Shown one piece after another: positions 11,522 through 50,335 of a stretch of 64,000 bases of DNA. The position numbers were made by a program, and so were the translations under genes. Numbering within the stretch: position 1 is the first letter of the stretch; every line of letters starts with the position of its first letter. Under the pieces are notes generated by a model. That model was not told the origin of the DNA. It worked only from the letters and a program-made list of their open reading frames with translations, and ran no database searches. The stretch covers positions 62,001 to 126,000 of the forward strand of contig CAJXQX010000001.1 in NCBI GenBank assembly GCA_913058185.1. Reading direction: 5' to 3'. This DNA comes from an uncultured Verrucomicrobiota bacterium (GTDB lineage: Bacteria > Verrucomicrobiota > Verrucomicrobiia > Opitutales > Opitutaceae).

Positions 11522-11586
11522 TTCTGATCCAGTTTTAGGCTTCCCCGGTAGCAGCAATGCCGAAGGGGCGACCTAACCCCAAGCCG

Positions 11587-48784: not shown

Positions 48785-49972
48785 ATGGCGTACACGGAAG
48801 ATCGATCACAATGGTATGAAGGGCAGGGACTGTGGCAGCACGTGCCGCAGGCGCAGTGGCAGGATTGGATCTGGCAGCTCAAGAATCGCATCACCACCAA
48901 GGAGCACTTGGAGCAGTATATGACTCTAACGGCGGAGGAAGAGGCTGGGATTGCCCACGCTGGCCAAAAGCTGTCTCTCGCGATCACCCCCTACTTCTTT
49001 AATCTGATGGATCGGGAGAATCCTAACTGCCCGATTCGGCTCCAGATGATCCCTCGTGAGGCGGAGACCAAGATTTCCGCCGGAGAAATGCTCGATTCCC
49101 TCGGCGAAGATGAGCACTCACCGGTGCCGGGCATCGTGCACCGTTATCCTGATCGCGTGCTGTTTTTGGTCACCGATCGCTGCGCCGCCTATTGCCGATA
49201 CTGCACCCGGAGTCGCCTCGTCTCGAATGCCCAAGACTACAATTTCCACCCGGAATACGAGCAAGGCCTTCGCTACATCGAATCTCATCCGGAGGTGCGT
49301 GATGTGCTCCTGTCGGGCGGGGATCCGCTCCTACTCTCTGATCGGAAGCTAGAACACATTTTGGCGCGTTTGCGGGAAATCCCGCACGTGGAATTTATCC
49401 GGATCGGATCCCGAATTCCGGTATTTCTGCCCCAGCGGATCACCCCGGAGTTGTGCGAGATCTTCAAACGCCACGGTCCGATTTGGATGAGCATCCACGT
49501 GAACCACCCGAGTGAGGCGACTGCCGAACTCAAAGCGGCCTGCGATCGGTTGTCCTTCGCTGGTGTGCCTCTGGGCAACCAGAGCGTGCTATTGGCCGGG
49601 GTAAACGACGATGCGGACACCATGAAAGCGCTTGTCCATCGCCTGCTGCGGATGCGCGTGCGTCCCTACTATTTGTATCAGATGGATCTCATCACCGGGG
49701 GTTCTCACTTCAAAGTCGATGTGCGTCGAGGTCTTGAGATCATCAAGGCCCTACGGGGTCACACGACGGGTTACGCCATTCCGCAATACGTGATCGATGC
49801 TCCCGGGGGCGGAGGGAAAGTGCCCATCAATCCGGATTTTGTGGAAGAAATCACCGACGAAGAGATCGTTTTCCGGAATTATGAGGGCAATGTATACCGC
49901 TACCCGTTGACTGCAGAAGTGCAGATTCAGACCGCTTCCGACCCCGCTTATGGGGTGATTGATGCAGGGTAA
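48785..49972 (+). CDS. KamA family radical SAM protein (lysine 2,3-aminomutase-like)
   Basis: HRYPDRVLFLVTDRCAAYCRYCTRSRLV, LLSGGDPLLLSDRKLEHIL, RPYYLYQMDLITGGSHFKV. Confidence 0.94.
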   Translation: MAYTEDRSQWYEGQGLWQHVPQAQWQDWIWQLKNRITTKEHLEQYMTLTAEEEAGIAHAGQKLSLAITPYFFNLMDRENPNCPIRLQMIPREAETKISAGEMLDSLGEDEHSPVPGIVHRYPDRVLFLVTDRCAAYCRYCTRSRLVSNAQDYNFHPEYEQGLRYIESHPEVRDVLLSGGDPLLLSDRKLEHILARLREIPHVEFIRIGSRIPVFLPQRITPELCEIFKRHGPIWMSIHVNHPSEATAELKAACDRLSFAGVPLGNQSVLLAGVNDDADTMKALVHRLLRMRVRPYYLYQMDLITGGSHFKVDVRRGLEIIKALRGHTTGYAIPQYVIDAPGGGGKVPINPDFVEEITDEEIVFRNYEGNVYRYPLTAEVQIQTASDPAYGVIDAG

Positions 49973-50024: not shown

Positions 50025-50039
50025 CTCAAAGATTATTGA

Positions 50040-50170
50040 GCGAATCCTAACTTAGGGCGTCCACCAAGATGCAGAATATAGCGCCGTAAAGGTTTTAACT
50101 TAGGTTAATTGATTACGGATTGCTTGGTGTTAGGTCATAAGGGGCGCCCGCAAGGGCGCCCCTTTATTTT
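50040..50170 (+). ncRNA. Candidate small RNA 1 (boundaries approximate; 3' end set by terminator)
   Basis: No credible ORF; caccaag (50062-50068) can pair with cttggtg (50123-50129); ttgcttggtgttaggtc (50120-50136) precedes perfect terminator ggggcgccc-gcaa-gggcgcccc-ttta. Confidence 0.5.
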
Positions 50171-50204
50171 GAACGAGAGCCCATGAATATCGTTCTGATA
50201 TTTT

Positions 50205-50335
50205 ATGAAAAAAAAGTTTAACAAAAATCGAACGAATTCTGATCAGCTGAGTCCATCTCTGTAGTTCAAGTTTTAGTTTTAGGTTTGCTTGGTGTTAGGT
50301 CTAAAGGGCGCCCCGAAAAGGGCGTCCTTTTCCTT
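50205..50335 (+). ncRNA. Candidate small RNA 2 (boundaries approximate; 3' end set by terminator)
   Basis: Same 17-nt ttgcttggtgttaggtc (50285-50301) followed by terminator aaagggcgccc-cgaaaa-gggcgtccttttt-like. Confidence 0.5.

Follow-up and report, generated by a model that had tools for sequence, protein, structure and literature searches.

In Enterobacteria, the small RNAs (sRNAs) MicA, RybB and MicL depend on both sigmaE and Hfq and mostly target messenger RNAs (mRNAs) of outer-membrane proteins (OMPs). GcvB, a larger, GcvA-regulated and Hfq-dependent RNA, carries a long single-stranded G/U-rich region, R1, that is expected to pair with C/A-rich mRNA. In Fusobacterium nucleatum, which belongs to a lineage without Hfq or ProQ, the sigmaE-dependent sRNAs FoxI and FoxJ have promoter motifs in common with rpoE; their seeds are C-rich, the porin FomA is repressed by them, and the output of their sigmaE includes a coding arm as well (PMC11005410). 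Here we describe two tandem units in a 64,000-nucleotide (nt) stretch, hereafter the window, of contig CAJXQX010000001.1 from an uncultured bacterium of the Opitutaceae (Verrucomicrobiota). We consider it quite probable that they are two trans-acting sRNA genes of one family, dependent on an extracytoplasmic function (ECF) sigma factor and acting without Hfq.

As in ECF- and sigmaE-type sRNA systems, the units have a common ECF-type promoter, and the same promoter is carried by the gene of a candidate cognate sigma factor. FoxI and FoxJ are paralleled in the candidate RpoE-type ECF sigma factor, the -10 and -35 elements shared with the sigma gene, the apparent absence of Hfq and the two putative outputs per sigma factor. 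In contrast to FoxI and FoxJ, to which no sequence relation was seen, the Opitutaceae core is G/U-rich, the sigma promoter sits within the sigma coding sequence, and the searches turned up almost no mRNA promoters. With MicA, RybB and MicL the units would have in common short sRNAs, ECF-type promoters, intrinsic terminators and several sRNAs per sigma factor, but they come from a different phylum and showed no Hfq match, no OMP enrichment and no Rfam match. The likeness to GcvB is compositional only, lying in the G/U-rich region. For the Opitutaceae, the outcome is an RNA family without an Rfam 15 match that can serve as a marker across the whole family. With its promoter defined and a candidate sigma factor named, an sRNA circuit independent of Hfq becomes directly testable in a phylum that has received little study.

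Central to both units is the 17-mer TTGCTTGGTGTTAGGTC. A sequence-only reading of the region had reported two identical copies with no convincing open reading frame around them and had taken them for two paralogous regulatory RNAs; both copies are present exactly, on the + strand (Table 1), and no convincing frame was found across the sRNA region. The window holds three matches to the 17-mer at up to three mismatches, against a shuffle expectation of 0.06. The third (at 11570, three mismatches) looks like chance and lies just 3' of a cysteine-synthase-like gene, in or beside terminator-like sequence. A genome-wide search, also proposed in that reading, returned only the two window copies at up to two mismatches in the whole 4.09-Mb genome.

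The 17-mer is conserved well beyond this genome. All eight genomes of the genus carry it twice (at most one mismatch), with both members of the pair persisting in each, and the exact 17-mer recurs in many further genera of the Opitutaceae; motif-bearing relatives include Opitutaceae, Opitutus, Lacunisphaera, Ereboglobus and Candidatus Didemnitutus. From 163 candidate sites gathered we kept the 158 with a promoter and dropped five isolated two-mismatch chance matches; L061, a weak chance-like match, is counted among the 158 but was left out of alignments. A covariance model of the unit, a check suggested earlier, matched in 148 of 200 Opitutaceae genomes. Across the phylum it matched in 31 of 388 genomes, 29 of them Opitutaceae. 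The sequence-only reading had made its case depend on conservation in relatives, and across the Opitutaceae the 17-mer is conserved. Rfam release 15 gave no match in the window at gathering thresholds, and at permissive thresholds the best sub-threshold scores in the region were about half the family threshold or less. A literature search found neither an sRNA family described for the Opitutaceae nor an sRNA regulon described for the Verrucomicrobiota.

A conserved promoter stands in front of each unit, bearing out the earlier view that the units would need promoters of their own. Its form, TTGARCG-N15-CGTCTATC (that is, TTGARC-N17-GTCTAT), was found in all 158 collected units, with a hexamer spacing of exactly 17 bp in 145 of them; the distance from promoter to core is free to vary, from 14 to 62 nt. 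The motif resembles promoters of the ECF type, of which the enterobacterial sigmaE promoter is an example, and not those of sigma70. When the promoter profile was run over the window, the two highest scores directly preceded the two units, and the third-highest was 9.1 bits. Because the promoter matches directly precede the units, limits could be predicted for both RNAs (Table 1); their lengths fall somewhat short of the 100-150 nt proposed for the two transcripts. The sequence CACCAAG (50062-50068) and two copies of TAACTTAGG (50048 and 50096) are present as reported, the first TAACTTAGG copy inside the unit 1 promoter spacer. The suggested pairing of CACCAAG with CTTGGTG in copy 1 found no support: CACCAAG overlaps the unit 1 -10 element and a few bases before the predicted transcription start, so the hairpin is probably absent from RNA 1.

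Table 1 Features of the two units, the neighbouring gene and the candidate sigma gene. Positions are those of the window; G000 coordinates are those of contigs of the window's genome.
Feature	Position	Strand	Evidence
-35 element, unit 1, TTGAGC	50036..50041	+	Best promoter-profile match in window, 18.4 bits from 50033; conserved in relatives
-10 element, unit 1, GTCCAC (consensus GTCTAT)	50059..50064	+	17 bp from -35 element; profile match
Predicted small RNA 1, ~98 nt	~50071..50168	+	Start inferred from -10; anatomy as in the 158 units; RNA-model match
5' hairpin, RNA 1, CCGUAA...UUACGG with inner UUAAC/GUUAA stem	50084..50118	+	Consensus fold of 8 same-genus copy-1 sequences
Invariant core, copy 1, TTGCTTGGTGTTAGGTC	50120..50136	+	Repeat search and conservation
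Predicted intrinsic terminator, RNA 1	50139..50164	+	Folding; terminator stems covary in family
-35 element, unit 2, TCGAAC (consensus TTGARC)	50228..50233	+	Second-best window profile match, 13.6 bits from 50225
-10 element, unit 2, GTCCAT	50251..50256	+	17 bp from -35 element; profile match
Predicted small RNA 2, ~71 nt	~50264..50334	+	Start inferred; RNA-model match G000:C1:112256-112336
Invariant core, copy 2, TTGCTTGGTGTTAGGTC	50285..50301	+	Repeat search and conservation
Predicted intrinsic terminator, RNA 2	50303..50330	+	Folding
KamA-family radical SAM aminomutase gene	48785..49972	+	Upstream context; Pfam LAM_C and Radical_SAM; NCBIfam TIGR00238 above cut-off
RpoE-like ECF sigma gene, window's genome	G000:C57:22781-23410		Pfam Sigma70_r2/r4; best NCBIfam match RpoE, below cut-off
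Promoter-like site embedded in sigma gene (L469)	G000:C57:23231-23260		

Units of the family follow a common order of parts: promoter, 5' hairpin of variable length (missing in some), core (...GTAGTTCTTACGGTTTGCTTGGTGTTAGGTC) and terminator. Over a length of 17-30 nt the core hardly varies, and the stems around it are kept as structures. Across 29 full-length units, 93.2% of the cells in the hairpin and terminator stems are paired, versus 39-54% in slid controls and 87.4% in shuffles, and compensatory, both-sided changes occur at 13 of 22 pairs. The 5' hairpin of copy 1 shows a few such changes among its eight same-genus sequences, and its UUACGG arm precedes the 17-mer. Minimum free energy z-scores are -4.55 for RNA 1 (50066-50168) and -2.71 for RNA 2, and a strong predicted terminator of the GC-rich kind claimed earlier follows each copy. 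The proposal of two paralogous sRNA genes is well supported by the conserved promoter, by this covariation and by the persistence of both copies throughout the genus. We also observed other sRNA-like units that have the same promoter and terminator and a different G/U-rich core (TAGTTTGTAGTTTGATAAGT and similar), in some Opitutaceae without the core described above (class A) and in some genomes of other Opitutales families. Examples are L260 (G017), L261/L248 (G015, three in tandem), L264 (G010), L278/L279 (G063) and L400:2225 (G044); such units sometimes stand two or three in tandem.

One further recurrent match came out of the promoter search; it lies within the reading frame of a gene for an RpoE-like ECF sigma factor. 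The embedded site reads TTGAAC-N17-GTCTATC, and its hexamers and spacing match those of the unit promoters. Among 30 orthologues, no synonymous columns of the gene are more extreme than those of Ser159, in the -10 element, and Leu151, in the -35 element: Ser159 is encoded by TCT in all 30 (TCT makes up 12% of the gene's Ser codons) and Leu151 by TTG in 29 (20% of its Leu codons), whereas the codons between them vary. The site is also kept by most members of a more distant set of 18 orthologues, which includes 13 from other Opitutales families. The region upstream of the sigma gene showed no convincing copy of the promoter. In most orthologues the sigma stop overlaps the start of a conserved downstream protein. 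This protein matched nothing in Pfam or NCBIfam and contains a hydrophobic segment, which in many orthologues lies near residue 62; from its layout the protein looks like an uncharacterised anti-sigma factor.

We infer that the RpoE-like factor recognises TTGARC-N17-GTCTAT and would therefore drive the sRNAs together with its own inhibitor. Each of the two RNAs would be transcribed from its own ECF promoter, most likely by the protein encoded at G000:C57:22781-23410. The promoter inside the sigma gene would read into the overlapping gene for the putative membrane-bound anti-sigma factor, such that the sigma factor, once released, would transcribe both RNAs and raise the level of its inhibitor. 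Both RNAs would consist of a 5' region (a hairpin in copy 1), the invariant G/U-rich core and a terminator hairpin. Through this core they would base-pair, without Hfq, with C/A-rich parts of mRNAs and change the translation or stability of these mRNAs.

Outside the units, the promoter is found almost only inside the gene of this sigma factor of the stress type, and it is probably this factor that turns the units on. In the small relative G044, of which 1.95 Mb of ~2.7 Mb (about 72%) was scanned, the profile gave two strong matches (one class A unit and one other sRNA-like unit) and two weak ones, whereas the reversed sequence gave no match at all. With a core-only pattern there were eight matches, and the sole two intergenic ones are these same sRNA-like units. 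A scan of 3.75 Mb of fetched sequence, chosen partly for holding units, yielded 174 sites above 14 bits (three in the reversed control), 151 of them class A units and most others sRNA-like. The exact core pattern matched four times in the window's genome, at unit 1, at the sigma gene and twice inside coding frames. When the pattern was varied, one more intergenic site appeared among the best matches, G000:C67:3056-3085 (L471). It lies 73 nt before the start of a 75-amino-acid membrane protein, and a search of 11 relatives did not find this protein; its gene is possibly a strain-specific regulon member. Since intergenic copies other than these are almost lacking in the genome scans, the promoter set, as sequence searches define it, is dominated by small RNAs. 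More tentatively, and with somewhat less conviction than doubt, we propose an Opitutales-wide ECF sigma regulon that consists almost entirely of small RNAs plus the sigma factor's own inhibitor, expressed from the promoter within the sigma coding sequence, and that works without Hfq. If true, a sigma factor with a near RNA-only output and a promoter in its own gene would be unusual wiring for the envelope-stress type.

Two sequence properties bear on how the RNAs might act. Hfq (PF17209) had no match in 23 genomes, including the window's, and control genomes do match. The core region is 77% G+U, versus 49% for random 40-mers of a relative, as expected of an RNA that pairs with C/A-rich stretches, and pairing of the core with mRNAs is plausible. 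Near-perfect complements of the 17-mer (at most two mismatches, 95 genomes) revealed no recurrent target gene. For the 17-mer as a conserved seed, as first proposed, its invariance and G/U-richness stand in favour, but base-pairing is only plausible and the target searches did no better than controls.

Several results weigh against our reading of the units as sigma-driven, mRNA-pairing RNAs, beginning with those target searches. When duplexes were predicted with 1,503 G044 gene starts, the top energies lay within the shuffled-core range. Among the predicted G044 targets there was no enrichment of OMPs or TonB receptors over shuffled cores (in the scanned 72% of the genome, with heuristic OMP calls), and targets shared by the two G044 sRNAs overlapped as in shuffles. 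The sigma/anti-sigma mRNA offered no recurrent pairing site and did not rise above shuffles. Because these searches failed, mRNA pairing is argued from the architecture of the RNAs. The same lack of a target above controls would suit RNAs that are real and sigma-dependent but bind a protein through the ~30-nt core, either to titrate it or to guide it, the partner being an RNA-binding protein or RNA polymerase; a near-invariant core longer than a typical seed would suit them too. Yet the G/U-richness of the core recalls some pairing RNAs, and the other sigma-linked classes keep promoter and terminator while changing the core, a pattern that suits changing targets better. The RNA may bind a protein; as the main account of these units we think such binding unlikely. 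Returning to sigma-driven, pairing RNAs, the promoters too supply points of difficulty. Those in the window depart from consensus, with GTCCAC and GTCCAT as -10 elements and TCGAAC as the unit 2 -35 element. Having been trained on sRNA units, the profile may overlook weaker mRNA promoters, which counts against an RNA-dominated output. The sigma gene of the Opitutaceae genome G026 (G026:C11:625367-625981, L325) lacks the embedded site (CTC AAC ... TCC). A class A unit was not found in that genome, and the whole circuit has possibly been lost there.

Scored with the full sRNA promoter profile, moreover, the embedded site reaches just 2.1 bits, and for this reason the link between sigma factor and sRNAs rests on core hexamers, spacing and codon constraint. 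This low score, and the ten or more sigma-like candidates that our initial survey often counted per genome, would fit RNA genes driven by another sigma factor, either an ECF paralogue or sigma-70, with the motif in the sigma gene reduced to a codon coincidence or serving another role. Exact hexamers at 17-bp spacing, falling on the two most constrained synonymous codons across many Opitutales families, speak against it, and we judge another sigma factor to be rather improbable. Far less probable still is that, in place of free-standing sRNAs, the neighbouring genes have a leader, an attenuator or a 3' untranslated region here, or that a small protein is encoded. Most units do lie just downstream of kamA (less than 1.5 kb, same strand, in 117 of the 156 units outside the window, the rest being elsewhere or on fragments too short to judge), but the units have their own promoter and terminator, they also occur away from kamA, and the window's downstream neighbour, an ArsR-methyltransferase fusion gene, is on the opposite strand. 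A small protein is countered by the variable promoter-to-core distance, and the core is unlikely to be a reading frame because it is near-invariant at every position, would-be third codon positions included. A chance repeat, or duplicated terminators without function, has next to no credibility: terminator hairpins do recur in genomes, but this sequence has two genomic copies only, and its conservation across the Opitutaceae, with covariation, already refutes a chance repeat. Sigma-driven sRNA genes of one family remain the reading we favour.

The immediate upstream neighbour in the window is the KamA-family gene of Table 1, and hairpin-like sequence was found 3' of it, as the sequence-only reading had claimed. 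A subset of units elsewhere (L095, L122, L138, L144, L156, L262 and L275) would give short RNAs with a recurrent AGGGG terminator loop, for example CUCGAGGGGUCGAG and CCUAGGGGUAGG; several members of this subset lie away from kamA.
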